Of a DNA stretch of 64,000 bases, positions 6,893-50,605 are shown piece by piece. The translations under genes were made by a program, and so were the position numbers. The notes under the pieces were generated by a model. The model worked only from the letters and a program-made list of their open reading frames with translations, did no database searches and had not been told where the DNA came from. Numbering within the stretch: position 1 is the first letter of the stretch; every line of letters begins with the position of its first letter. The stretch is from a virus. Location: positions 1 to 64,000 of IMG/VR virus record IMGVR_UViG_3300031669_000007; one strand, given 5' to 3'.

Positions 6893-7133
6893 GACCACTT
6901 TAACAAACAGAGAGTTATGTTTTTTTCGGCGCACCCTTTACAATTTGTATTGCGGGATAATCAATATCACCAGCAAAGTCTGCTCGGTAAAAGCCATCTA
7001 AGTTTACATACTTTTCAATATCACATTCTTTTGCCCACTTAAAGAATTCCTCTTTCTCTTTCTCAGTAGTAAAATCCTTGAGTTCAAGTCCAGTTTGTCC
7101 TTCACTTAAAGTAAGCGTGTTAATAATTTTCAT
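6889..7133 (-). pseudogene. Tail-family gene with tail out of frame (A7 run)
   Basis: From ATG at 7133 the frame stops at 6915 with I-V-K-G-A-P-K-K-T, lacking the family tail. Shifting by one base in the run of seven A gives K-N-I-T-L-C-L-L-K-W-S and a TGA at 6889-6891 that overlaps the next ATG, exactly the usual arrangement. The body has F-F-K-W-A-K-E-C-D where relatives have the W-C-E helix. It may be a -1 frameshift on the A7 run, a decayed gene, or a one-base homopolymer error. Confidence 0.65.
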
Positions 7134-7354
7134 GACCACCTCAACATAAAGAGCATAAGATCTTGTTCACTTGTAAAATCAATATATTCAGTTTTCTCAA
7201 TATTAATTGCTCGCCATTCTAATAATAGCTTAGAGATGATATCATTATCTACCATCTTATGCCCGAGACCCTCGTAGTAATCAACAAAGTTGTCCCACCA
7301 ACCATTGAACTCAAGACTTGCTCCACCATCCTCATATACAGAAATTCGTATCAT
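7130..7354 (-). CDS. Tail-family small protein (LFMLRWS)
   Basis: Start ATG at 7354 (MIRISVYEDGG), overlapping the upstream stop. Shares W-W-x-N-F-V-D-Y-Y near residue 22 and the tail F-T-S-E-Q-D-L-M-L-F-M-L-R-W-S with the next two genes; the three are recent tandem copies. The codons for L-R-W-S and stop (TTGAGGTGGTCATGA) also give the ribosome-binding site and start of the downstream gene. Confidence 0.75.
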   Translation of the reverse strand: MIRISVYEDGGASLEFNGWWDNFVDYYEGLGHKMVDNDIISKLLLEWRAINIEKTEYIDFTSEQDLMLFMLRWS

Positions 7355-7572
7355 GCCCACCTCAATAAAAACAGCGTGACCTCTTCTTCAGTGTTGAAAC
7401 CAATATAGGGACTGTTTTCGACGTTGATTATTCCATATTTCCCCAACGTCTCGGTCATGCCCTCATTTGTTACCATGTCAAACCCTTTTCCTCTATGGTA
7501 GTCAACGAAGTTAGTCCACCATCTATTAAACTGCCTAACACCAGTATTGTCACATACAGTCATCTTAATCAT
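7351..7572 (-). CDS. Tail-family small protein (LFLLRWA)
   Basis: Start ATG at 7572 (MIKMTVCDNTGV). Close relative of the flanking genes: R-W-W-T-N-F-V-D-Y-H and tail F-N-T-E-E-E-V-T-L-F-L-L-R-W-A. Ends TTGAGGTGGGCATGA, again joining the tail codons, a Shine-Dalgarno and the next ATG. Confidence 0.75.
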   Translation of the reverse strand: MIKMTVCDNTGVRQFNRWWTNFVDYHRGKGFDMVTNEGMTETLGKYGIINVENSPYIGFNTEEEVTLFLLRWA

Positions 7573-7790
7573 GACCACCTCAACACGAACAGTAAGTAAT
7601 CTTGCTCGGTTTTAAAACTAATGAATTCAGTTTCTTCAATGTTTGTTGCGTTCCAATCCTCTAATGCTTTGTCAAGTCGATCACCATCTAATAGAAAACT
7701 GCTTAGTTCTTCGTAGTGGGCAATAAAATTTAACCACCATCGATGATTGCTACCTATAGAATCGTAAGCAAATACAGATACCTTAATCAT
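7569..7790 (-). CDS. Tail-family small protein (LFVLRWS)
   Basis: A 73-residue protein, third of the W-W-x-N-F triplet (H-R-W-W-L-N-F-I-A-H-Y). Tail F-K-T-E-Q-D-Y-L-L-F-V-L-R-W-S. ATGA overlaps at its 3' end. Confidence 0.75.
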   Translation of the reverse strand: MIKVSVFAYDSIGSNHRWWLNFIAHYEELSSFLLDGDRLDKALEDWNATNIEETEFISFKTEQDYLLFVLRWS

Positions 7791-19577: not shown

Positions 19578-19585
19578 TATTTATA
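19578..19585 (-). promoter_or_regulatory. Late promoter TATAAATA, 5 bases before ATG
   Basis: Exact TATAAATA on the minus strand followed by CTTGT and the ATG of the 19330-19572 gene. It overlaps the 3' end of the 19581-19799 gene. Confidence 0.65.
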
Positions 19586-19799
19586 CAGAATTTCGATTTC
19601 CTTTCAGAATACGCATTATTGCCTCTTCTTCGGTAAGTGAGTCTGATTCTCTAACAATCATCGTGGTTGGGAGTTTAACTCTTTCACTTATTATTTGTAG
19701 AGTTATATATCTGGGTTCTACTGCTATTATTTGGCAGACGTTGTCAGCCCAATAAATCCAAGACCCTATACTCAATTGTGTTTCTTTATCAATTATCAC
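19581..19799 (-). CDS. TEEEA-family protein 6 (SH3/KOW-like)
   Basis: A 72-residue protein from a GTG at 19799. Begins with a small beta-barrel-like region (I-G-S-W-I-Y-W-A-D-N-V-C-Q-I-I) and ends L-T-E-E-E-A-I-M-R-I-L-K-G. Last of six tandem copies sharing 'G-D-x-V/I-x-x-x-N-x-V/C-x-V-I' near the start and 'T/S-E-E-E-A/T-x-M/F-x-L-L-K' at the end. Confidence 0.65.
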   Translation of the reverse strand: MIIDKETQLSIGSWIYWADNVCQIIAVEPRYITLQIISERVKLPTTMIVRESDSLTEEEAIMRILKGNRNSV

Positions 19800-19995
19800 T
19801 CTTTGTATGACCTTTGAGAATGAGCATAGCTGCTTCTTCTTCTGTAATTACTGTCATTTCTGATGATCGATAGGTGCTTAGTCTGAAGTCGTAATTAAAT
19901 CCTGCTCCACGTATTATAAGAATATCCTCAACGTTGATAACCTTACAAACATAGTTGGACCACATAACCCAGTCTCCGACCCTAATAGAAGTCAT
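19789..19995 (-). CDS. TEEEA-family protein 5
   Basis: A 68-residue copy: V-G-D-W-V-M-W-S-N-Y-V-C-K-V-I-N near the start, end I-T-E-E-E-A-A-M-L-I-L-K-G. Closest to the 19581-19799 protein; the genes overlap by 11 bases. Confidence 0.65.
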   Translation of the reverse strand: MTSIRVGDWVMWSNYVCKVINVEDILIIRGAGFNYDFRLSTYRSSEMTVITEEEAAMLILKGHTKSDN

Positions 19996-20216
19996 CTATT
20001 TGCACAGCTCTTTAAGAGAAAAATAGTAACTTCTTCCTCAGTTAGCACTTCTACATCTTTAATTCTACTTTGCGGTATTCTAACAACAACTGATTCATAA
20101 GGACGAAGAAGCATCTCAAGTCTGGTTTTATCTACGGCAACAACTGTTCCAAGATAATTATCATATCCAAGAATATTGCCGATCTTAATTTTTTTTCCGT
20201 TTTTATCAGTTGGCAT
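19992..20216 (-). CDS. TEEEA-family protein 4
   Basis: A 74-residue copy starting MPTDKNGKKIKIGNIL; D-N-Y-L-G-T-V-V-A-V-D resembles a KOW-type turn. End L-T-E-E-E-V-T-I-F-L-L-K. This F-L-L-K end comes close to the F-L-L-K/R-W tail of the larger family. Confidence 0.65.
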   Translation of the reverse strand: MPTDKNGKKIKIGNILGYDNYLGTVVAVDKTRLEMLLRPYESVVVRIPQSRIKDVEVLTEEEVTIFLLKSCANR

Positions 20217-20451
20217 TTTTTAATAAATACATTGTTGTTTCTTCTTCAGAAAGCATTATTAGTTCTTTCTCTGGGTGGTGTGACCACTGTAATCCGACAG
20301 GGAACAAATATTCTTCTTTAAAAGGACGAGTCAGAACGATTGTGGTTCCTTCATACTCATCTAATCCCTGAACAACAAAACATCGTCCCGCAGTGTTTAA
20401 TACTAAACGACCAATAAGTATTTGATTACCATTTATATCGTACGCTATCAT
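20206..20451 (-). CDS. TEEEA-family protein 3
   Basis: An 81-residue copy starting MIAYDINGNQILIGRL. Beta-rich core (RCFVVQGLDEYEGTTIVL) and end L-S-E-E-E-T-T-M-Y-L-L-K-N. Its end overlaps the next start. Confidence 0.65.
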   Translation of the reverse strand: MIAYDINGNQILIGRLVLNTAGRCFVVQGLDEYEGTTIVLTRPFKEEYLFPVGLQWSHHPEKELIMLSEEETTMYLLKNAN

Positions 20452-20698
20452 TTTTTAACAGTTCAAAGACTGCCTCTTCTTCGGTCATTGCAATGATATC
20501 AACTGCATTTTGCCAACATTGCAGGGTTCCACCTTTTAATTTAAGTAGCACAGCATCTGTTCTTATTTTGTATACAGAAGTCTTCAGTGATCTAATTTCA
20601 ACAACATCAAAGACACCATAATCATACATTATGCCACCGCCGAGAACTGAGAAGGCGCAATCGCCAACTTCTATGTTGCGGCCGTTTTTATCCTTCAT
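20426..20698 (-). CDS. TEEEA-family protein 2
   Basis: A 90-residue copy starting MKDKNGRNIEVGDCAF, with F-D-V-V-E-I-R-S-L-K and end M-T-E-E-E-A-V-F-E-L-L-K-N. Overlaps the next gene by 26 bases, the largest overlap of the set. Confidence 0.65.
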   Translation of the reverse strand: MKDKNGRNIEVGDCAFSVLGGGIMYDYGVFDVVEIRSLKTSVYKIRTDAVLLKLKGGTLQCWQNAVDIIAMTEEEAVFELLKNDSVRYKW

Positions 20699-20936
20699 TT
20701 GCTTGCCTCTTCAAGATCCACATGATCATGTCTTCTTCTGGCAAGAGAACAAGAGAGTTGCAAGGTTGATTTTTCTTTTTAGTAGTAGGCGACGGTTCTC
20801 TTAGAAAGATAATTGCATCTCTTCCTTTGAATCTGAATCCCATAATCTTATAAATGTTGTTGAATGAAACAACATGGTCGCCGACTTTAAGAGGGCGACC
20901 AATTATATCTAAATACTCTTTTGGTGATTTATCCAT
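20688..20936 (-). CDS. TEEEA-family protein 1
   Basis: An 82-residue copy, first of the tandem: V-G-D-H-V-V-S-F-N-N-I-Y-K-I-M-G-F near residue 18 and end L-P-E-E-D-M-I-M-W-I-L-K-R. The 'E-E-D-M-I-M-W-I-L-K' end bridges this family and the E-E-D-A-M-L-F-x-L-R-W family. Confidence 0.65.
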   Translation of the reverse strand: MDKSPKEYLDIIGRPLKVGDHVVSFNNIYKIMGFRFKGRDAIIFLREPSPTTKKKNQPCNSLVLLPEEDMIMWILKRQANEG

Positions 20937-34302: not shown

Positions 34303-34872
34303 TTACTCAATAATTGCTGTATAATCTTCTTTAATGTATGATGAACCTGTCTTAAACATTGGCCAGTCAGAAAAATCGCCAGTATTTTCTATCATAATAC
34401 GCCAATCCGTAGATCCACCACTACTGTAAAAATTATTTAATGTATCAATATCAAATGGTTCATTCTGCCCAGCTTTGATATTATGCCATTGTTTCTTAAA
34501 TCTTGATAATCCCTTAACTACTTCTTGCATATCAGGAGAATGTATCTTACCCAAAAATAATGGGTTTTTCGCCAATCTTGATTTATAAAACCAGAGCATT
34601 TTAGAAAATATCTTTTGTCCTCTATATTCTTCTTTAACCCAAATATCATCGACTATGTTCTTATCATTCAATGAAGTATATGCTATTAGTTGATTCCTGT
34701 ACCATAAAGAATAATAGTCATTATATTGTCTAACTTGATATTGTTCAATATCTGCGATATATTTCCCGTGTGTTAGCCACAACTCAGAGTGTTCTTCCCC
34801 AAACTTTTTTGCAAGGTTAGAATAATCTGGACCTCGCCAAGGCATTTCGCTTATAAATTCTATGGATCTCAT
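34303..34872 (-). CDS. GNAT-like acetyltransferase with capsid-targeting-like leader
   Basis: A 189-residue protein. The N-terminus M-R-S-I-E-F-I-S-E-M resembles the T4 internal-protein leader, with a cleavage-type I-S-E. The body has W-V-K-E-E-Y-R-G-Q-K-I-F-S-K-M-L, matching GNAT motif A (acetyl-CoA binding). Start 34872 is chosen because CATAAATA ends 4 bases upstream; an adjacent in-frame ATG at 34875 is possible. Likely packaged and delivered enzyme; inference. Confidence 0.55.
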   Translation of the reverse strand: MRSIEFISEMPWRGPDYSNLAKKFGEEHSELWLTHGKYIADIEQYQVRQYNDYYSLWYRNQLIAYTSLNDKNIVDDIWVKEEYRGQKIFSKMLWFYKSRLAKNPLFLGKIHSPDMQEVVKGLSRFKKQWHNIKAGQNEPFDIDTLNNFYSSGGSTDWRIMIENTGDFSDWPMFKTGSSYIKEDYTAIIE

Positions 34873-34876
34873 CATG

Positions 34877-41064: not shown

Positions 41065-41660
41065 CTTATTCTCTTTGTAGCAACTAGTTCCATATTTTTA
41101 GCATCTAATAGTTCGGGACTGTATTCTCCACCGTAATCCCAGGTATCTGTGTCTTTTGAATGAGTATATTCTGGATCGCGCATATCTACATTGACTGGCT
41201 TCCCGTTTAACCATCCGTGTATCTCAACATTTTTATGATACTTCTGTAGTTGTTTCCACACTGCGTGGCCACCAGGCGATTGGCTTGATGCAACTAATGT
41301 CTTCCCTAATTTAGTAATTAAAAAGGCATAGAAATTATGAGCCTTGAGTGTATTATTTTTATTAATAGCGTATAGACTTATATTCGTTAATATATTATTA
41401 TCTTCGTTTGCCCCAACTACTAAATCAACTTTTCCGTCTGGCGACACAGCATAATATCCATGCCAATCCCCGCCCTGAGGATCTTTCTCAAAATATACTT
41501 TGTGACCGTCTGGCATCTTAGCAATCTGAACACCGCCAATCTTTAGAAGTTGCTTTTCGTTAGATGGATCTTCCGGGTGCCATTTCCCCTTACGTTTAGT
41601 AATATAATCAAGCTCTTCAACCTCGTCAATTGTAGTCTGAATTACTTCATTGATTTTCAT
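41061..41660 (-). CDS. Packaged-type protein with leader MKINEV
   Basis: Start at 41660, overlapping the preceding stop (ATGA); leader M-K-I-N-E-V-I-Q-T-T-I-D-E. The 199-residue body is beta-rich (H-K-V-Y-F-E-K-D-P-Q-G-G-D-W) and ends in a segment L-G-K-T-L-V-A-S-S-Q-S-P-G-G-H-A-V-W-K-Q-L, a block I recall from hypothetical proteins of marine phages. Activity unknown. Confidence 0.55.
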   Translation of the reverse strand: MKINEVIQTTIDEVEELDYITKRKGKWHPEDPSNEKQLLKIGGVQIAKMPDGHKVYFEKDPQGGDWHGYYAVSPDGKVDLVVGANEDNNILTNISLYAINKNNTLKAHNFYAFLITKLGKTLVASSQSPGGHAVWKQLQKYHKNVEIHGWLNGKPVNVDMRDPEYTHSKDTDTWDYGGEYSPELLDAKNMELVATKRIR

Positions 41661-43153
41661 AAATCTAATTCCCAATAGTTTCCGCTGTCATTATGATCAA
41701 CGGACTTAAATCCTGCTTTCTTAAACATATCTTTTGAACCCACATTAGTCCATTCCGTGTATGCCTTAACCGTGTAATAACCATGTGCTTTTGATTGCTC
41801 AACTATGTATTTAAGCAATTCTGAGCCAAACCCTTGTCCCGTAGGTGTTGCGTCTATGCGATTAATATATGCAATTCCAGAACTATTATCTAAATCTAAC
41901 GTGGCTGATCCGCGTTTTGCTTGTGTTTCGCCTATTCTATCAATCCAGTTCTTAGCTGAGTTTGTTATGTGTGCATTTAAGAATACTCTCAGATTCCAGT
42001 CGCCTTTCTCTTCTATGTCTAATCGTTCTGTTTCTGACGATTCTTTTATTGATATCGACTTAATTTTACGAACTATTTCCCAGGTGTTTAACCCCTCCGA
42101 TATTGTTAATTTAGATTTAAATTCAAATTCAGGAAAATACTTACTGATAGATTTGGCAAATCTATCATATAATTTATTTCGACTTGGTAAATCTATCTTA
42201 CTTGAAAAGTAAATAGCTCCTATAGATTTATTTTCTCTGTCAAAATCAACGAGAATCAATGATAATATTTCTTTAATAGTTGCAAAAATTCTAAATGCAT
42301 CCCCTGTATTTTCTATATCCTGACTCAAATCCGACTTTTCTTCTCCTTTAATCAATGAAAATAAAACATTGATTACATTCTCATTCCCTCTAAATTCTTT
42401 TGCATATTTGACGGTAACAAGATAAGCTAATCCCGAATCAGTCTTAAATTTATAAGATTTTTTCGGCATTAAAGAATCTGAGTTATTGCTGTATTCGGGG
42501 GAATACTTAAACGGATACGGAGCATCGGCTAACTCGGTTAGCATTTTATTATCTTCTAATACAGTAGATGACTCTGTAATCTTAAATTCTGATTTATACC
42601 ACAAGTAGATGTCTGCAGAAGAACAACGCTTGTCGAACTCTCTGCGTAAGATATAATAAATTTGCTGTTTATCTGCTCTCGATAAATCATCCCAGTTACC
42701 AATGTCGCGACGCAATTGCCTTAATAAGGAATTAGACGATAGCTTTAGATAATCTTCTAATCTCCAAAAGAATGTAACATCGTCGTTGTGAGATGATTTT
42801 GACTTAGTCTTAGATGCCAATACACCCAAGTATCTATTAATTTGGAATAACGGAATGCTCACGCCGATATGAGTTTTAATATCCTTCTTAAATGTGTCTT
42901 GGTTATTTAATACAGCAAGCAAATTGCCCAGGTCAGAGCCTGAATAATGCAGTTGATCATAGGTATTATATTTTAGTGTATCTCTTGCGTAATCTGCTGT
43001 ATAATTTGGTTTGTAATGTCTTATTACTTCTAACATCATAAACATCAAAAAGACTATCTGTGCTATTTCGTCAGCAGACATGCCTTTAATGTCCTTTACT
43101 CCATAAAACATGCGAGCTTCGACGAGAGAATCAATGAAAGGTAGTAGTGACAT
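41657..43153 (-). CDS. Large protein with C-terminal GNAT domain
   Basis: A 498-residue protein. N-terminus L-L-P-F-I-D-S-L-V-E-A-R fits a leader with cleavage after L-V-E. A 350-residue helical region of unknown type is followed, from about residue 390, by a GNAT domain: R-I-D-A-T-P-T-G-Q-G-F-G-S-E-L-L-K-Y (acetyl-CoA loop) and M-F-K-K-A-G-F-K. Likely acetylates a host protein after delivery; inference. Confidence 0.6.
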   Translation of the reverse strand: MSLLPFIDSLVEARMFYGVKDIKGMSADEIAQIVFLMFMMLEVIRHYKPNYTADYARDTLKYNTYDQLHYSGSDLGNLLAVLNNQDTFKKDIKTHIGVSIPLFQINRYLGVLASKTKSKSSHNDDVTFFWRLEDYLKLSSNSLLRQLRRDIGNWDDLSRADKQQIYYILRREFDKRCSSADIYLWYKSEFKITESSTVLEDNKMLTELADAPYPFKYSPEYSNNSDSLMPKKSYKFKTDSGLAYLVTVKYAKEFRGNENVINVLFSLIKGEEKSDLSQDIENTGDAFRIFATIKEILSLILVDFDRENKSIGAIYFSSKIDLPSRNKLYDRFAKSISKYFPEFEFKSKLTISEGLNTWEIVRKIKSISIKESSETERLDIEEKGDWNLRVFLNAHITNSAKNWIDRIGETQAKRGSATLDLDNSSGIAYINRIDATPTGQGFGSELLKYIVEQSKAHGYYTVKAYTEWTNVGSKDMFKKAGFKSVDHNDSGNYWELDL

Positions 43154-43772: not shown

Positions 43773-44549
43773 TCATGTAATAGGAGTGCCGCCAACGCGA
43801 AGTGTTTCTAATAGATCAGATCTAACTATAATACACGGTCCGCCTATCCACAATTCTTTATCTCGCATTCCACCGCCAGCAAATTCTTCTAAGTCATATA
43901 ATTGAAACCCGGTATTTTGTGGAGCCATTGCTTCTTCAATTTCTGGTAAAAAATCCTTAGGCTCAATTGGTTTAATTTTATTATCTTTAATTAAGTAGTT
44001 CAGTTCTCTCGCGAAGAAATCAGATTGAACTTCTTTAACCATTGAATTATAGTCCTGAGATAATCTCAGGTCTTCAAGAAATTCATTTAGGTCTGGAAAA
44101 TCAAGACCACTATAGACAAACGGTAGATCAATTCGTGTTTCCCATATATCAATGGCAGGACACACGGCAACCTTAACTCCTCTTGCTGGAAATACGGCAT
44201 AGGTTGCAGCCGACCACGGTGCTCCATGAGCATAATCAGATGCTCTGTCAAATTCAGTTGAACAAATTATGCTTCTACTTCTTTTTGGCCATCCATTGAA
44301 ATAAGGAGAATTATCCATTAATTCTGTGTAATAGTTAGATGTATTTTGTGATTGTCTAACGCCTGTGCTTGGATAAATCTTTAATATCTCCTGATTATGA
44401 TTGTTAAATCCGCGCCAGATAGGTTCTCTAATTAGTTCATCTACTACGGGGCAGAATTGCCTTAGTAATGTCTCTACCTTGTCGGTGTTGATTACTTCTT
44501 TTTCGTAAGGTTTAACCTCTGCTTCAGATATTATCTCATTGATTTTCAA
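43773..44549 (-). CDS. ADP-ribosyltransferase-like protein with leader
   Basis: A 258-residue protein from a TTG at 44549 that overlaps the preceding TGA (TTGA). Leader M-K-I-N-E-I-I-S-E-A, an exact I-S-E/A prohead-protease-type site. The body has I-W-R-G-F (Arg), S-R-S-I-I-C-S-T (Ser-Thr block) and D-K-E-L-W-I-G-G (Glu), the R-S-E order of ADP-ribosyltransferases. T4 Alt is a packaged ADP-ribosyltransferase with the same kind of leader. Activity is inferred. Confidence 0.6.
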   Translation of the reverse strand: MKINEIISEAEVKPYEKEVINTDKVETLLRQFCPVVDELIREPIWRGFNNHNQEILKIYPSTGVRQSQNTSNYYTELMDNSPYFNGWPKRSRSIICSTEFDRASDYAHGAPWSAATYAVFPARGVKVAVCPAIDIWETRIDLPFVYSGLDFPDLNEFLEDLRLSQDYNSMVKEVQSDFFARELNYLIKDNKIKPIEPKDFLPEIEEAMAPQNTGFQLYDLEEFAGGGMRDKELWIGGPCIIVRSDLLETLRVGGTPIT

Positions 44550-45307
44550 AATGGGTCATCCTCTATTGAATCATTGTCATCGTCGGCAGTGTCGTTTGTA
44601 TATCCTACCGTGCTACCCGAGAAAGGATTATATCCGGCTGCAATAGAACTGCCATTGTCTTGAAGAGGATCAGTTAATACTAATTGTATGCCAGTTGGTC
44701 CAAGCCGAATCATTATATTCCCTGCGTGTACATCAGTGCTAAACGCTGAATTAGAGTTATATACTTCTTGAATTAACTGTATAGCTTGAATTAATTTTTC
44801 ATCACTGAAAATCTCGTACATATTAATGCTTGACTCAATTCCTTTTTCAATGTCACTTGAAATATTCCACAGTAATAATTCTCCTAGACGATGGTAGGCC
44901 AGAGCTTTCTCAGTGTAAATCTTTTCGGCTATTATCTCAACTAAGTTTTCTATCTCAGAGTTTGCTTCACTAATTGTCATTAGTTTTTCCATATTATAAG
45001 CTGGTTTAACTAATCCATCGCTATATCTTTTAAAGACAACTTCATAGACTCTTGGGAAATATGGGTTGCTTTTCATAAAAGGAGAACATGCTTTGATATA
45101 TTGATAATATGCATCGTTCTTTAGATTAGATGGCATTCTTATTTTCTTACGATACATGTGAGTATCAAGAGGATCTGGTGTCCCACGAGCATACGCCCCA
45201 CCATTTGTAGTGTCGATTTTTTGTCTTTGCCCCATCTTTTCAATGTTGTATGGTTTGCTTATCGGACGCTCGACATGTATTGGTTCTATTATCTCATTGA
45301 TTTTCAT
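44546..45307 (-). CDS. Second kinase-fold protein with leader
   Basis: A 253-residue protein with leader M-K-I-N-E-I-I-E-P. Kinase-like elements: P-R-V-Y-E-V-V-F-K-R (strand and Lys), L-G-E-L-L-L-W-N helix, S-T-D-V-H-A-G-N-I-M-I-R (D-x-H-x-x-N catalytic loop) and L-V-L-T-D-P-L (metal Asp). The glycine loop is not clear. Acidic end (TADDDNDSIEDD). A paralogue in fold, not in sequence, of 40414-41064. Confidence 0.55.
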   Translation of the reverse strand: MKINEIIEPIHVERPISKPYNIEKMGQRQKIDTTNGGAYARGTPDPLDTHMYRKKIRMPSNLKNDAYYQYIKACSPFMKSNPYFPRVYEVVFKRYSDGLVKPAYNMEKLMTISEANSEIENLVEIIAEKIYTEKALAYHRLGELLLWNISSDIEKGIESSINMYEIFSDEKLIQAIQLIQEVYNSNSAFSTDVHAGNIMIRLGPTGIQLVLTDPLQDNGSSIAAGYNPFSGSTVGYTNDTADDDNDSIEDDPF

Positions 45308-46432
45308 TTATGTATTCCTTGCGAAATTAGCCTGGCTAAATTGGGTGCGATTAACCAATTTAATTGGTCCTCCCTCGTCGCTAGATACATAGCCCTCACC
45401 GCCACGTGCGCCTGCAATGTGTGCGATAACTGTTCCTTCATGTGAATCTAATTGATGAAGTATATCTAATTTTAGTCCGGTAATTAAATCGAATATATTA
45501 AATACTGCCTGTAATCCTGCTGCGTTTTGTTCTGAATAGGCAATTACCTTACCGACCATTGCCTTAGATATCTTTGGGTTAGATTGAACCCAAGAACCGA
45601 ACTTAGCATATAGATTGGTTAAATCTCTTGTCTTAACCTGTGCATTGACGTATGTGTATAATAGATCAGGCAATGCTGCCATCTTTTGTTCACGCAATAC
45701 ATCTTCGTCAAGGAACGCATCTACCACTTTGGCATTCTTCTTAACGTATTGTGTGATCTGTTTGGCTTTTACTTTGTCTGCTTGAAGAGTAGCTTCGTTC
45801 TTAATCTCCGGGCCTAAGATGCATAATGGGCCATTGAGGTTTAGTCCTGCTGTATTCTTTAATGGAACACCGTCTGCACCCACGTCTGAATAAAAGGTGT
45901 GAACAGCCATCCCAGCTTTTGATTGAGCTATGTGATGTCCGAGTTCAGAGTTCTTATCTACTTCATACGTTACCGTATTAGGCGTAAAGATGAATCGCTT
46001 AGTTGTTTCTTTTAGTTCGCCAGGGAACCACATAATATCGCCAAACACAAAACCACGATAATTAGAAGGCACCGAAGCCTGAACGATAGGCCAGATTGCG
46101 ACGATTTTAGCGAGATAATCTTCATCTCCACCTTTGCTGCGCTTTTGCTTAACAAATTCTTTAGCTGATTTATATAGTCCATTGTATCCTTTCGCGCCAA
46201 ATCCCGCTTTGTCAGTGAAGATGAATTCTCCATCTTCATTACGACCGAATACACAACTTGGTTTTCCATCCCATTTGATTGACAAAATATCTTTACTCTT
46301 GCTTAGACTTAATAAGTTATTAACTGCTCTGAGAGCACCAGCAGATTTTTCCCAAAAAACTAAGTCCTCGGCGTGCTGAATGCGAGCACCCTCATTGAGA
46401 ACTGATTCTACTATTATTTCATTGATTTTCAT
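45308..46432 (-). CDS. Ligase-like nucleotidyltransferase with leader
   Basis: A 374-residue protein with leader M-K-I-N-E-I-I-V-E-S. L-S-I-K-W-D-G-K-P-S (residues about 50-59) matches motif I (K-x-D-G) of the covalent nucleotidyltransferases; G-F-V-F-G-D-I-M-W is like motif III, E-G-T-V-I-A like motif IV and P-I-K-L-V like motif V. Similar proteins occur in many marine T4-like phages. DNA or RNA ligation is not shown; capping-type or decayed activity is possible. Confidence 0.6.
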   Translation of the reverse strand: MKINEIIVESVLNEGARIQHAEDLVFWEKSAGALRAVNNLLSLSKSKDILSIKWDGKPSCVFGRNEDGEFIFTDKAGFGAKGYNGLYKSAKEFVKQKRSKGGDEDYLAKIVAIWPIVQASVPSNYRGFVFGDIMWFPGELKETTKRFIFTPNTVTYEVDKNSELGHHIAQSKAGMAVHTFYSDVGADGVPLKNTAGLNLNGPLCILGPEIKNEATLQADKVKAKQITQYVKKNAKVVDAFLDEDVLREQKMAALPDLLYTYVNAQVKTRDLTNLYAKFGSWVQSNPKISKAMVGKVIAYSEQNAAGLQAVFNIFDLITGLKLDILHQLDSHEGTVIAHIAGARGGEGYVSSDEGGPIKLVNRTQFSQANFARNT

Positions 46433-47174
46433 TTTTTAATCGTTCCTTTAGTAATGGCAACAATGTTTTTCTAAATTCATTCTCATTCATATGCCCTTTA
46501 ACAGTATTCACTATTCTAAGACAAAAGACTAAATTTTCTGCGGCGGCGGTTTTCTCAGTAGGCCAGTTATAAAAGAATGCTTCATTGACCGAAATCTTAT
46601 GATCGATTGTCCTCTTCAGCGGGTCATTTGGGTTGACTTTTTCTAATAAATTGTCATTGAATGCAATGTCGGTATAATAGCATGTGTTAGGTATTAGGTT
46701 AATTTTCTTAATTTTGTCAACCTGTTTTTTAGTCATTGACTCTACTTCTTTTCTATAATTATTAAATTCCTCATTGATTTTTAATTTTTTATAAGGTATT
46801 AAGTTTTGTTTCTTGAACCCTTCTCCGGGTCGTTGGCCATTATTAATAACGCCATATCGATTAAGCATTGATGCCTGCATTTTACTTTGTCTCTTATCAT
46901 TGGTGTTTTTACCGCTAATCCCTTCATAAACACCGCCCTTCTTCAAAATTTCTGTGATCAAATTTCGCAATTTCCCACCAAAAACTTTAGTGCTTTCTTT
47001 CTCAATAACATATTTACAACATTCAGAAACCGAATATGTCTCTAAGTAATACTTAGCTATATAATCATTGAGAACATCCTTTAATCGTAATACTTCCTTC
47101 TGATAATCAGAACAATTTCTAAAATGAGCCGTATTTCCCTTAGGTATCTCTAATCCACAAACACATTCACACAT
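46419..47174 (-). CDS. HNH-type homing endonuclease
   Basis: A 251-residue protein. N-terminal C-E-C-V-C-G zinc motif with a later H-F-R-N-C, a basic middle with R-Y-G-V-I-N-N-G, and an HNH-like core R-T-I-D-H-K-I-S-V...A-A-E-N-L-V-F-C-L-R-I-V-N-T-V-K-G. Family differs from the other two HNH genes. Overlaps the start of the leader-bearing gene downstream by 14 bases. Confidence 0.65.
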   Translation of the reverse strand: MCECVCGLEIPKGNTAHFRNCSDYQKEVLRLKDVLNDYIAKYYLETYSVSECCKYVIEKESTKVFGGKLRNLITEILKKGGVYEGISGKNTNDKRQSKMQASMLNRYGVINNGQRPGEGFKKQNLIPYKKLKINEEFNNYRKEVESMTKKQVDKIKKINLIPNTCYYTDIAFNDNLLEKVNPNDPLKRTIDHKISVNEAFFYNWPTEKTAAAENLVFCLRIVNTVKGHMNENEFRKTLLPLLKERLKNENQ

Positions 47175-47442
47175 AATAGTTCTCCTTACTATTATTTATG
47201 CTGGATAGCGTCTTATCTAATAGAAGTTCGTTAATCTTCATAACTTCCATCCTTTCTGAGATAGGTACAGTTAATAATATTTGTTCAACTTTCTCATAAT
47301 ACTGATATGCGTCCATAATTCTTGGAATGGCAATACCAACACCGAGAGATATAATACCGGCAGCGGCCAATTTAGCAACTTTTGCTTTAATACTTTCTTC
47401 AAGTATTTGTGATTCTGTTAATATAAATTCGCTTGATTTCAT
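47167..47442 (-). CDS. Small leader-bearing membrane-type protein
   Basis: Start at 47442 (M-K-S-S-E-F-I-L-T-E-S-Q), an ATGA overlap; L-T-E/S is a good prohead-protease-type site. The 91-residue product has one hydrophobic helix (KLAAAGIISLGVGIAIP), so it could insert into the membrane after delivery. Its 3' end overlaps the HNH gene start. Confidence 0.5.
   Translation of the reverse strand: MKSSEFILTESQILEESIKAKVAKLAAAGIISLGVGIAIPRIMDAYQYYEKVEQILLTVPISERMEVMKINELLLDKTLSSINNSKENYYV
47193..47200 (-). promoter_or_regulatory. Late-type promoter CATAAATA
   Basis: Minus-strand CATAAATA 18 bases before the HNH gene at 46419-47174, with AAGGAG in between. Confidence 0.5.
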
Positions 47443-48197
47443 AATGTCCATCCCTCATTCTGATAATAGTGTTTAGCCAAAACAAGCCAATTTGAATTAA
47501 CCACTATTGCTTTGTCTGCTATTAGCATTATTTCGTGTGATGATCTAATGCCACCTATTAAATCTTTATTAAACTGATAATCACCGTCGATCATAAAATC
47601 ATTGACATAATTATAATTATCGAATACTTGTTTCATCTTTTCTTTTAAAGAAAAAGAACTAGCGTGTTCATCTCCGTCGCCAGCTGCATCAGTGAAGTGT
47701 TCCATACTTTCATACATATCGACATAATTTCTGGACCAGCAGAAGCTAAAATTACCCATTGGTATTACCACGACGGTATCACCGTATCCAGATGCCTTAG
47801 CTTCCTTACCAAAACAAAATAACGATTGGCGTCTAATTCTGATGTTTGTTCTTTCTTCAAACCAATCATCTATTGCTGCGCTAACATTCTTGGGTGTGTC
47901 TTTTGGGTTACGGTCTTTTCTGATGTTCACAGTGTTAAACGGATGCTCTTCTGGTATATCCATTGCCTGATGGTCAGGAATACCCACACCTCTGAATAAC
48001 GGGTAATTAAACAAAGCATTCTCGATGCCGCCGACCTGAGTCAGGTATGGTTGTGATGTTCTCGTCAGAAGAGCCGCTAACTCTGACAGCGACGATTTTA
48101 TTTTATTTACTTCATTTGCATCTGACCATTCGATATCATTCTCTATTTTTGCTGTGTCAGAATCAAGGTCTTCTAAGATTATGTCTTTAATTTTCAT
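47439..48197 (-). CDS. ADP-ribosyltransferase-like protein with leader
   Basis: A 252-residue protein with leader M-K-I-K-D-I-I-L-E-D. Core motifs: Y-P-L-F-R-G-V (Arg), R-R-Q-S-L-F-C-F-G (Ser block), V-V-V-I-P-M-G and S-S-H-E-I-M-L (Glu). Clear paralogue of the next gene (48194-48862): D-D-W-F-E-E-R and D-Y-Q-F-N-K-D are shared. ADP-ribosyl transfer is inferred from the R-S-E order. Confidence 0.55.
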   Translation of the reverse strand: MKIKDIILEDLDSDTAKIENDIEWSDANEVNKIKSSLSELAALLTRTSQPYLTQVGGIENALFNYPLFRGVGIPDHQAMDIPEEHPFNTVNIRKDRNPKDTPKNVSAAIDDWFEERTNIRIRRQSLFCFGKEAKASGYGDTVVVIPMGNFSFCWSRNYVDMYESMEHFTDAAGDGDEHASSFSLKEKMKQVFDNYNYVNDFMIDGDYQFNKDLIGGIRSSHEIMLIADKAIVVNSNWLVLAKHYYQNEGWTL

Positions 48198-48862
48198 TCT
48201 GGCTCCACCAATTTCTTTAAGAATTTCTGTCGTATTACTAATGCCTTTTTACAGGAGAGCATTATTTCTGTCCCGGAAAATATCGCACCTCGAATATTGG
48301 TATCAAATCGATAATCTCCTGAATCCATAAATTCGTTTATTCTAGCTTTGTAAAACTGTTCTGCCTCATGCACAGACATGCCAGCACCTCCGTTGGGCGG
48401 CTTGTAGTTAAATTTGCCTAATGCAACAAATAAGTCTCTATACTGGGCAGAATATGCATAGTGGTATTCTCCCATTGGTATTACAATTAATGCACCGGTT
48501 GCCATTCCTGAATAAGAAATAGCGATATCAAATCGACCAGTGCAATGCAACGATGTCTGTCTAAATCTGACACCTACACGCTCTTGAAACCAGTCGTCAA
48601 TGAGAATCTGAACTCCTTCAGGGGTATCTGTCGGAATCCGATTTTGATTTACTATAACAGTTTTGGCGTGAGAACCAGGCGGAAATTCTATTTTCTCTAT
48701 TCCTCGATACATTGGATAGTCGATTATTGCAGCGTCGAATCCACCTATCTCTTGAAGATATGGTTGACATTGTTCTTCTGCGAACATTCTTATGCCAGCA
48801 AACTCTTTAAGAAGCTCTTTTTTAGTGTCACTGTCTTCAGTAATTATCTCTTGTATTTTCAC
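48194..48862 (-). CDS. ADP-ribosyltransferase-like protein with leader
   Basis: A 222-residue paralogue of 47439-48197: leader M-K-I-Q-E-I-I-T-E-D; Y-P-M-Y-R-G-I, R-Q-T-S-L-H-C-T-G, L-I-V-I-P-M-G and G-T-E-I-M-L. The I-T-E/D site matches the T4 cleavage pattern. ATGA overlap on both sides. Possible target: host RNA polymerase or ribosome, by analogy with T4 Alt; speculative. Confidence 0.55.
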   Translation of the reverse strand: MKIQEIITEDSDTKKELLKEFAGIRMFAEEQCQPYLQEIGGFDAAIIDYPMYRGIEKIEFPPGSHAKTVIVNQNRIPTDTPEGVQILIDDWFQERVGVRFRQTSLHCTGRFDIAISYSGMATGALIVIPMGEYHYAYSAQYRDLFVALGKFNYKPPNGGAGMSVHEAEQFYKARINEFMDSGDYRFDTNIRGAIFSGTEIMLSCKKALVIRQKFLKKLVEPE

Positions 48863-49620
48863 TTTGGGTTCACCATCTGAGATAACGATCTATACCAGGA
48901 TGGAGAACCTACTTGAATAGATTCTGGCAAGTTAATTAATCCCTTTTTGGCATCTTCTCTTGCCTGTGCTAGTTTTGCATCTCTAGCTGGGTCAGATGCC
49001 AATGCTTTCATTATTGTTTTAATGCTGGCCAGGTCTGCTGCTGTTGCCTTAGGATTAAGCAGTATCTTAGCCACAGAATCTTTGTCGTCTGCTACCACCA
49101 CGCCTGTCTCTCTGTTAACTAGCTTGCCCTCAAATGGGCTGAACTTTAAGCCTAATGATTTGGCAATGCTTGAATATAATATGAATAGCTGACCGCCCTT
49201 AAAGTCTGGATCATCGTATTGTCCTGACGGACCATGCTGATGGAACGGTGCGACTTTAGCTGCATTCGGAATGACCATAATATCTAGCTGAACAAACGTG
49301 CCATCTGGCACTGGCATACGAACGTGGACATTACGTCCCGACAATGCGACCTGAAACCCCTCTTTCTCAATGTATTGCTTTAATGCTAATTTAGTATATT
49401 TCTCGTCTGGTGTATTAAATAACTGTGCTAATTTACCGGCATCAACAAATACATCCATGTCACCTGACTCAACCTTATATCCAGCCGATCCGATATCTGG
49501 AATAATATTAATTCCAAATGGCATTATCTTCTGAATATCTTTAATTATTCCTGGGACATATTCTCTTTTAATTGGAGATACGTCAGGAAATACATTTCCG
49601 CCTTCATTTAATTGATGCAT
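48859..49620 (-). CDS. Pol-beta-type nucleotidyltransferase-like protein
   Basis: Start at 49620 (M-H-Q-L-N-E-G-G) with AAAAGGA upstream; L-N-E/G is a prohead-protease-type site. The 253-residue body has I-G-S-A-G-Y-K-V-E-S-G-D-M-D-V-F-V (residues about 45-62), the G-S-x(n)-D-x-D pattern of pol-beta nucleotidyltransferases, and V-Q-L-D-I-M-V-I as the third Asp strand. Nucleotide transfer onto RNA or protein is possible. Confidence 0.6.
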   Translation of the reverse strand: MHQLNEGGNVFPDVSPIKREYVPGIIKDIQKIMPFGINIIPDIGSAGYKVESGDMDVFVDAGKLAQLFNTPDEKYTKLALKQYIEKEGFQVALSGRNVHVRMPVPDGTFVQLDIMVIPNAAKVAPFHQHGPSGQYDDPDFKGGQLFILYSSIAKSLGLKFSPFEGKLVNRETGVVVADDKDSVAKILLNPKATAADLASIKTIMKALASDPARDAKLAQAREDAKKGLINLPESIQVGSPSWYRSLSQMVNPK

Positions 49621-49621
49621 A

Positions 49622-50605
49622 TTAATTCCTTTTAGCTTTACCGCCATATGTTGGAGCTAACACCTGGTTCAACGTTGGCTTGTCCTTAGGCAGTGGATCA
49701 TTGACTGTTTTGTGCCATTCTTTGCCGGTTCTCGGCGTATCTAAGCTATTTTTCTTCTTTTTATTTTTTGCTTCTTCTAACTTCTCTTTCTTTAAGCGTC
49801 TGACAGCCATCTCCTTAACTGTGTATTCATTGATCAGCTTTTTAGCTTTGTTAATTGATTCGGTCATTTCTAGTTCCTCGTTATTTGTGCTGCGATTACC
49901 GACTATGCGGTTATACAGATCTGGCCGTACTCCGACTTTATCAGTGTGCTGTTTTGTTGCCTTAGCATAATAGTTGCCGGCCAAGTTCTTAGATATTTCA
50001 TTGACTTGTGATTCTTCGGTTGGCTGCGGTTCTTGCTTAGGCCGTCTATTAGCTCTAGCTTGCATTCTTCTTTGATAGCTAGGAGCCATTTTGTAAGGAG
50101 TTTGTGGAGATGGTGGAGCAGGAATAAACGTTCCTGTCTGATTGTCGGCCATTTTCTCTAATGCCTGAACTTGTGTAGGATCGACAATTTTTTGATTTAA
50201 TTCATTGACCCAACCTGCATTAGTTTTATAATATTTTCCCTTACTTCTAGGGTCAATGATCATAAACTTTTCCCCTGGCCTTAGAGCAGGCTCCTTCTGA
50301 GGCGTCTGAGACGTCTGACCTTGAGTAGGCATATTTGATGCTCTATTTGGGTTTGGTTTTACTTGCATCTGAGCTTGGCTTCTGGCTTGCGTAACTTCTT
50401 GGCGTTTTTGTTGAAAGTTTTTTTCTGCTTGATGACTTAAACTATGCTCTAAGTCGTGGGCGCCTAACCCCCTTGCCAGACCAGAATAGGCATTAGCGTT
50501 TCTATCAATGTGGCTACTAGCTGCGGCAGCGGCGTTAGCTGCACCCTTCTTAATAGCGTCCCATATTCCTTCGTCTAACTCACTGCTAAATTCATTGATC
50601 TTCAT
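49622..50605 (-). CDS. Basic, disordered internal head protein candidate
   Basis: A 327-residue protein. Leader M-K-I-N-E-F-S-S-E-L-D-E-G. Long Gln/Pro/Asn/Arg-rich, low-complexity body; further L/I/V-x-E sites (V-N-E-I, M-T-E-S, I-N-E-Y) could be cut during maturation. Lysine-rich end (KKEKLEEAKNKKKKN). This resembles the composition of T4 internal proteins that bind packaged DNA. Confidence 0.55.
   Translation of the reverse strand: MKINEFSSELDEGIWDAIKKGAANAAAAASSHIDRNANAYSGLARGLGAHDLEHSLSHQAEKNFQQKRQEVTQARSQAQMQVKPNPNRASNMPTQGQTSQTPQKEPALRPGEKFMIIDPRSKGKYYKTNAGWVNELNQKIVDPTQVQALEKMADNQTGTFIPAPPSPQTPYKMAPSYQRRMQARANRRPKQEPQPTEESQVNEISKNLAGNYYAKATKQHTDKVGVRPDLYNRIVGNRSTNNEELEMTESINKAKKLINEYTVKEMAVRRLKKEKLEEAKNKKKKNSLDTPRTGKEWHKTVNDPLPKDKPTLNQVLAPTYGGKAKRN

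Follow-up and report, generated by a model that had tools for sequence, protein, structure and literature searches.

A divergent ADP-ribosyltransferase-like protein family, probably packaged, in giant T4-type phages

The window analysed here, i.e. 64,000 nucleotides from the 92,630-base virus record IMGVR_UViG_3300031669_000007 in IMG/VR, encodes three proteins, named below by their first coordinate (43773, 47439 and 48194), which we think fairly probably belong to a packaged, divergent ADP-ribosyltransferase (ART) family of giant T4-type phages that is injected and modifies host macromolecules. This reading builds on the genes themselves, their conserved residues, a predicted ART-like fold, leader-like starts and tandem expansions, and from these we infer catalysis, the packaging of these three proteins, injection and host targets.

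The proposed course of events would be as follows. The three proteins would represent an unrecognised divergent family within the ART superfamily. Each would carry at its N-terminus a capsid-targeting leader, some nine residues long with L/I-x-E at its end, would be incorporated into the core of the prohead and would then be trimmed by a gp21-type protease. The trimmed protein would enter the host together with the injected DNA, where nicotinamide adenine dinucleotide (NAD+) would be bound by the beta1 Arg, the Ser/Thr of a strand resembling the Ser-Thr-Ser (STS) motif and the C-terminal Glu, and ADP-ribose would be transferred onto host macromolecules. Repeated duplication inside phage lineages would have spread the paralogues over different targets.

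Three genes and their family

The three minus-strand genes lie in a co-directional, overlapping gene run (Table 1), and since the start codon of each shares 4 bases with the end of the upstream gene, the run looks translationally coupled. The initial annotation, made from the sequence alone, had described three open reading frames (ORFs) here with an Arg motif, a Ser block and a late Glu. ORF calling and a motif scan confirmed the ORFs and the R-G, S-x-x-C and late E motifs, which fall at W45-R-G, S93-I-I-C and E232-L-W in 43773, at F68-R-G, S125-L-F-C and E222-I-M in 47439, and at Y52-R-G, S104-L-H-C and E199-I-M in 48194. The first two motifs occur once per ORF, as does the late E motif in 47439 and 48194; 43773 carries it twice, the later copy being the conserved one. 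A strict pattern ([WFY]RG, SxxC and E[ILV][MW] at set spacings) was found only in these three among the 189 ORFs of the 92.6-kb record and in none of 500 shuffles, and a loose R..S/T..E pattern was found in seven of the 189 (the three and four others), as compared with 1.95 in shuffles. Since the strict pattern was designed from the three sequences, conservation among relatives is the stronger evidence.

Such relatives were found by tblastn against 50,697 phage records in Agrobacterium phage Atu_ph07 (the genome of which is present as two deposits), Salicola phage SCTP-2 and two uncultured giant phages. Single-protein searches of viral contigs using 47439 and 43773 gave zero relatives, and a search of IMG/VR with an alignment including Atu_ph07, SCTP-2 and LR756508 proteins gave 47 loci. 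Hidden Markov models (HMMs) then collected 157 ORFs. Removal of 11 ORFs shorter than 190 amino acids (aa) and of 20 that were redundant at 90% left 126 non-redundant members (81 of subfamily B and 45 of subfamily A), which come from 46 loci. Subfamily A contains 47439 and 48194, which share 31% identity as tandem neighbours, and subfamily B contains 43773; the two subfamilies are related (profile comparison probability 98.9%, E 2.7e-17). The HMM search found no further member in the record at E<=0.001.

For structure prediction, alignments of 73 B members (A4) and 40 A members (A5) were hand-picked. These left out the L003-L006 members, so that Atu_ph07 is represented via locus L019 (4 B and 5 A modules), as well as several long, fused or fragmentary members; two near-duplicates were restored and one truncated ORF was kept. 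Loci L059-L062 and L063-L066 were left out of the analysis.

By sequence, phrog_12810 and phrog_11975 appear to be this ART-like family: phrog_12810 is matched by each of the 73 aligned B members, 33 of which match phrog_11975 too. Both are labelled unknown function and neither is annotated as ART. No Pfam model was over its cut-off for the three window proteins, with two weak unrelated matches for 47439, and NCBIfam gave no relevant match for 10 proteins. Bacterial genomes, searched using close B relatives only, yielded 47 pattern stretches and zero relatives, and a PDB sequence search with the A4 and A5 profiles returned designed or helical proteins for the most part, plus two weak matches to unrelated proteins. 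The Pfam family DRAT was matched by one of the 73 B members (E 0.0025, 19.9 bits vs a cut-off of 25), which was set aside as family evidence because it is too weak.

Conserved residues

The Arg and the late Glu highlighted by the initial annotation are conserved throughout the family. In the B alignment, the R46 position is Arg in 72 of 73 members and Lys in one, and the E232 position is Glu in 72 and Lys in one; in the A alignment, the R53 position is Arg in 36 of 40 (His in three, Ser in one) and the E199 position is Glu in all 40. Further conserved positions are G47 (67), R65 (73), S67 (68), R90 (72), P121 (68), D134 (72) and W234 (72) in B, and R75 (37), R101 (40), P129 (40) and D143 (36) in A. 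The pairs R65/R75, R90/R101 and D134/D143 are family hallmarks outside the motif list proposed at first.

The Ser block was located only in part. There is a Ser/Thr site near the Cys, but the upstream Ser that had been flagged is kept in 60/73 B and only 17/40 A members. The residue directly after the Cys is Ser in 40 and Thr in 25 of the B members (65/73), and Thr in 21 and Ser in 10 of the A members (31/40). In our own reading of the alignments, this residue would match the first Ser of the canonical STS, as judged by comparison with the member L004:397-1212, which has a canonical F-A-S-T-S.

As a side observation, three A members of locus L053 (4256-5290, 7625-8395 and 9862-10806, all on the minus strand) carry His in place of the beta1 Arg. 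PARP-type enzymes use His-Tyr-Glu.

Predicted fold

AlphaFold predicted 43773 from A4 with a mean predicted local distance difference test (pLDDT) of 90.8 and a predicted template modelling score (pTM) of 0.88 (model md16df757970f), and 48194 from A5 with 93.1 and 0.87, respectively (model m7e2ccef5abd7); 47439 is represented by the subfamily A model of 48194. The Arg lies on predicted strands 44-47 (B model) and 52-54 (A model), the STS-like residue at the middle strands 94-97 and 104-108, and the Glu of the catalytic position at strand 232-235 in the B model and just before strand 200-203 in the A model.

A structural aligner was run as a second look on the 357 and 313 chains ranked highest by Foldseek, families outside its listing not being thereby excluded. 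With the B model, 16 entries (17 chains counted) reached Z>=2, headed by 2AUA (Z 6.8, 128 residues aligned, 3.7 A). The other 15 are PARP1 (nine entries), tankyrase 2, PARP4, DarT (7omv, Z 3.1), OspC3 (two entries) and CopC, the last two proteins being ART-fold enzymes. With the A model, seven of 12 rows are ARTs, i.e. 2AUA (Z 5.8 over 134 residues), Arr (4.4 and 4.0), PARP1 (2.7), OspC3 (2.4) and pertussis S1 (2.1 and 2.0). The top entry of both lists, 2AUA, is BC2332, which is titled unknown function in the PDB; the SCOP codes used for ADP-ribosylating proteins include that of the BC2332-like family (PMC3000352), and a template analysis ties 2AUA to ADP-ribosylating catalytic domains (PMC3024214).

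The best neighbours of both models are therefore ART-superfamily enzymes, i.e. neither model shows the fold without an ART core that the initial annotation had named as contradicting its proposal. While each Z-score is middling, the make-up of the two lists seems hard to explain by chance. Considering the predicted fold and the residues together, membership of the ART superfamily is very likely, and catalytic ADP-ribosylation is probable.

Leaders and probable packaging

The starts of the family look like the capsid-targeting leaders of T4, judging by their sequence, and each of the three window proteins has such a start (Table 1). T4 gp21 cuts after L/I-x-E; for incorporation into the head, the first ten residues of IPIII sufficed (PMC9026906). 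The leader pattern stands at the called start of 67/126 members, as compared with 45/424 other ORFs from the same loci outside the window and 1.85/126 in shuffles; within 40 residues of the called start, it is found in 81/126 members and 56/424 other ORFs. In the window's record, a looser pattern was found in 15/189 ORFs, eight of them at 34.3-50.6 kb, i.e. the three genes and five neighbours.

A gp21-type S77 prohead protease was detected in 9/18 records, including 7/7 records over 160 kb. In Atu_ph07, eleven family genes stand head-to-tail at 39.5-50.6 kb, one of them holding two modules, and this array corresponds to coding sequences (CDS) 53-63 in record order (AUZ94865-AUZ94875). CDS 31-76 of this phage have been described, at the level of the cluster, as a virion-protein cluster with 29 proteins identified by mass spectrometry (PMC6102473). 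Since the record order reproduces the numbering of that paper (major capsid protein 215, prohead core protein 204 and portal 198 agree), the array lies inside the cluster. Together, the leaders, the protease of the relatives and the position of the Atu_ph07 array support the earlier idea that the three proteins are part of a packaged set, and we consider packaging and injection probable.

Expansion within phage lineages

Family genes tend to occur in rows. At E<=0.001, 13 modules were counted in Atu_ph07, 14 in SCTP-2, 20 in LR756508 and 11 in a 343-kb record, where overlapping rows were merged manually and the best E per merged module was <=2.5e-6. At least two hits of at least 150 aa were present in 36/51 loci and a head-to-tail run of at least two in 27/51, some of these 51 loci being probably one virus assembled twice, as they have identical hit coordinates or scores.

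In midpoint-rooted FastTree phylogenies, same-genome sisters were found for 33/52 B and 23/33 A tips from multi-copy sources, as compared with 1.1 and 1.6 under shuffled labels. The Atu_ph07 copies used (five A and four B), the two A copies of the window, six B copies of L051 and five A copies of L049 each form a single clade. Fusions also occur in Atu_ph07 (L003:18799-21135 and L003:10027-11115), one member being joined to a P-loop domain of the Zeta-toxin type (PF06414, E 1.5e-14) and a second one to a GNAT domain, the match to which is weak (E 0.005) and below the cut-off.

It is tempting to speculate that giant T4-type phages carry an arsenal of up to about twenty paralogues, often in tandem, repeatedly duplicated and many with capsid-targeting leaders, which would be co-injected with kinase-, acetyltransferase- and nucleotidyltransferase-like neighbours as a broad covalent-modification barrage on the host during the first minutes after infection, with every paralogue directed against a different host or defence protein. 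This extension is tentative and, in our view, slightly less probable than not.

Alternative explanations

Several observations weigh against the interpretation given above. With regard to the fold, Foldseek found no match in the PDB at E<=0.001 with the B or the A model, and most of its top rows were unrelated proteins; the chains aligned afterwards had been preselected by Foldseek, a Z of 2-7 falls in the range that the aligner calls middling, and nine of the 16 B rows are a single protein, PARP1. With regard to the sequences, no Pfam ART model was over its cut-off across the 73 B and 40 A members, the 11 Pfam families listed for the 40 A members include zero ARTs, and similarity to T4 Alt, ModA and ModB reaches at most 4.7% probability (hhalign, 29 T4 proteins). 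In BFVD, 28 matches to the B model were obtained at E<=0.001, none named ART, and PARP/ART-PolyVal names appeared only at E 0.7-2.6. The low Z-scores and the missing Foldseek significance would agree with a different alpha/beta fold that bears RG, S and E motifs by chance. However, 16/16 B rows belong to the ART superfamily by title, by SCOP (2AUA) or, for OspC3 and CopC, as ART-fold enzymes, and the unrelated A rows align over at most 59 residues vs 97-134 for the ART rows, which makes a non-ART fold very unlikely.

With regard to the active site, 47439 has Phe at the STS position, given which this protein may be weak or inactive. In addition, the position two residues ahead of the Glu shows no conserved E/Q among the 73 B and 40 A members: it is mostly Asp or Asn in B (Glu in 4/73) and Gly, Asn or Lys in A (Glu in 4/40), and the three window proteins have Asp, Ser and Gly. 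Members of so numerous and divergent a family could have become non-catalytic internal head or decoy proteins with a retained ART fold, and the Arg is indeed replaced in 1/73 B and 4/40 A members and the Glu in 1/73 B, possibly a misaligned truncated ORF. Yet the Arg, the Glu and four further Arg/Pro/Asp positions hardly vary while overall identity to the first sequence is 16-43%, which fits an active site better than a scaffold, and we regard a purely structural role as highly improbable.

The substrate is a separate question, since similarity of fold does not discriminate between ART substrates. Packaged ART-fold enzymes might, like DarT, modify nucleic acid, or they might serve counter-defence by destroying or converting NAD+ or a nucleotide signal. 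The presence of DarT among the B neighbours and of the rifampin-modifying Arr among the A neighbours would agree with this, as would the lack of the arginine-type E/Q-x-E. A nicotin(am)ate phosphoribosyltransferase-family gene, present in 8/18 records including the window's, would fit an NAD+-centred conflict; however, the family also occurs in 6/14 control genomes and is therefore no specific marker. Considering that diversification within lineages combined with near-invariant catalytic residues suits many protein targets better than a single small molecule, a substrate other than host protein appears unlikely, though it is the most serious of the alternatives.

With regard to packaging, 59/126 members are without the leader pattern at the called start, some through a visibly variant start, and 45/126 are without it even within 40 residues. 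The 92.6-kb record of the window, which is a fragment, yielded no match to S77 and, for gp23, only one below the cut-off. T4 ModA and ModB act without being packaged, and the enzymes described here could likewise be made in the infected cell, the MK-x-x-E-I-I-x-E start then being a family signature with another role. The pattern being present at the called start of a part of the members only, and in its looser form on seven ORFs outside 34.3-50.6 kb, would suit this, as would the S77 and gp23 searches without a match over the cut-off. On the other hand, unrelated neighbours in the run bear the same start, which terminates in the sequence after which gp21 cleaves (PMC9026906), and in Atu_ph07 the array falls within the virion-protein cluster; we therefore hold synthesis in the infected cell without packaging to be rather unlikely. 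Finally, copies from one source do not always form a single clade, as seen for L021, L029, L031 and the B subfamily of L016. Regardless, a packaged ART family is the explanation that we favour.

Gene neighbourhood

Table 1. Features of the window discussed in the text (leaders are listed below the protein to which they belong)
Feature	Position	Strand	Details
ART-like protein 43773, subfamily B	43773..44549	-	258 aa, TTG start; phrog_12810 E 2.3e-25; model pLDDT 90.8
Landmarks of 43773			R46; C96 then STS-like S97-T98; E232; plus family-conserved R65, R90, P121, D134
Capsid-targeting-like leader of 43773	44523..44549	-	MKINEIISE, ends I-x-E
ART-like protein 47439, subfamily A	47439..48197	-	252 aa, ATG start; phrog_11975 E 7.7e-29
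Landmarks of 47439			R69; S125-L-F-C128 then Phe at STS position; E222
Capsid-targeting-like leader of 47439	48171..48197	-	MKIKDIILE, ends I-x-E
ART-like protein 48194, subfamily A	48194..48862	-	222 aa, GTG start; phrog_11975 E 1.3e-24; model pLDDT 93.1
Landmarks of 48194			R53; C107-T108-G109; E199
Capsid-targeting-like leader of 48194	48836..48862	-	MKIQEIITE, ends I-x-E
Protein with C-terminal GNAT acetyltransferase domain	41657..43153	-	PF00583 E 2.2e-5, 25.1 bits vs cut-off 20.7
Kinase-like protein, in run	44546..45307	-	N-terminus MKINEII; weakly matches phrog_15752 (E 8.4e-7; protein kinase; inhibitor of host transcription)
Probable nucleotidyltransferase-like protein, in run	48859..49647	-	nucleotidyltransferase motif read by eye; without Pfam match

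Two neighbours have counterparts around the Atu_ph07 array. The nucleotidyltransferase-like protein resembles L003:8446-9279 beside the array (26% identity over 129 columns, pairwise E 3e-5), and the N-terminal part of 41657-43153 matches a gene adjoining it (BLASTP pairwise E 3e-10). The kinase-like protein also has a weak match to the Stenotrophomonas jumbo phages CM1 and RAS14 (E 1e-8, 26.6% identity).

Other minus-strand genes include 34303-34875, encoding a second GNAT-type acetyltransferase-like protein, which is under the Pfam cut-off whereas 41657-43153 is over it; 45308-46432, encoding a DUF6267 protein (E 9.3e-37) which starts with MKINEII and in which a K-W-D-G motif, as in nucleotidyl-lysine ligases, was seen by eye; and 46419-47174, also in the run, the product of which weakly matches endonuclease VII (phrog_1035, E 9.1e-6). 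Rows of small look-alike ORFs of about 68-90 aa at 6915-7790 and 19581-20936 (minus strand) are perhaps duplications, as judged by eye.

At further positions of the record (loci L055/L056), 77557-78954 encodes NAMPT and 80001-81056 a cytidylyltransferase-like protein with a Nudix domain, presumably of the NadM type; the two are likely an NAD+ salvage pair. Three adjoining small ORFs at record positions 85006-85825 (L056) have alike starts near 'P-x-G-x-I-I-V-L' and are probably paralogues.

Previous work and significance

Jumbo phages of all three groups in a published overview encode several ARTs, at least some of which probably modify RNA polymerase (PMC7824862). A survey of NAD+-related functions in 21,191 viral proteomes found ARTs in over 40% of jumbo phages, named as many-ART examples Bacillus phage G among phages ('at least 10') and Bodo saltans virus (12) among eukaryotic viruses, and argued that many phage ARTs are packaged; its main text mentions neither Agrobacterium, Salicola, Atu_ph07 nor SCTP, while its supplements may list the family (PMC9503650). 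The main text of a paper on a Sinorhizobium jumbo phage does not contain 'ADP-ribos' (PMC11242549), and no title naming this family was among those listed by literature searches on jumbo- or huge-phage ADP-ribosyltransferases, capsid targeting and virion proteomes.

Packaged ADP-ribosyltransferases are known from T4, and here the modules counted in each of Atu_ph07, SCTP-2 and LR756508 (13, 14 and 20) belong to a single family. The family rows in giant phages suggest an injected host-takeover toolkit. If its members are active, a function would be available for the two phage families phrog_12810 and phrog_11975, and there would be a possible reason why the 46-gene virion cluster of Atu_ph07 looks like 'unique structural proteins' (PMC6102473). 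Active members would also provide a rich enzyme set with which to map the host proteins that phages disable first.

Comparison with T4 Alt and other known enzymes

Among known structures, BC2332 (2AUA) and the PARP, DarT, Arr and OspC3 enzymes are the best neighbours of both models, with Z of only 2-7. While PARP-type enzymes have His as the first residue, the family has Arg, with His in 3/40 A members.

The T4 enzymes ModA and ModB resemble the window proteins in size (200 and 207 aa), in a [WY]-R-G motif and in being encoded by two adjoining genes. In contrast to the family, their starts are without the leader form, and ModA carries E-Q-E-V where no E/Q is conserved in the family. Of the 29 T4 proteins compared, ModB is the top match to each of the two profiles (2.0% and 4.7%); ModA comes next for A (4.3%), while its 0.6% for B is level with unrelated proteins; values of this size are not significant. 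Membership of the Alt or Mod families was therefore rejected, as the profile similarity is not significant and the E/Q-x-E, present in Alt as E-M-E-V, is missing.

The analogy drawn at the outset to T4 Alt, an ADP-ribosyltransferase packaged in the virion and acting on host RNA polymerase, stands in part: it is supported by the predicted ART core, the order of the landmarks and the leader-like start, and fails as to significant similarity with Alt, ModA or ModB. Alt has 682 aa vs 222-258 aa in the family, which is often encoded in tandem and is without a conserved E-x-E. Like the family, Alt shows Y-R, S/T and E landmarks in equal order and a short N-terminal start of similar hydrophobic and acidic make-up, in phages with a gp21-type protease. 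By analogy only, RNA polymerase might be a target. Considering the probability of 0.1 that hhalign gives for Alt with both profiles and the lack of a conserved E/Q, the family may work like Alt without belonging to Alt.

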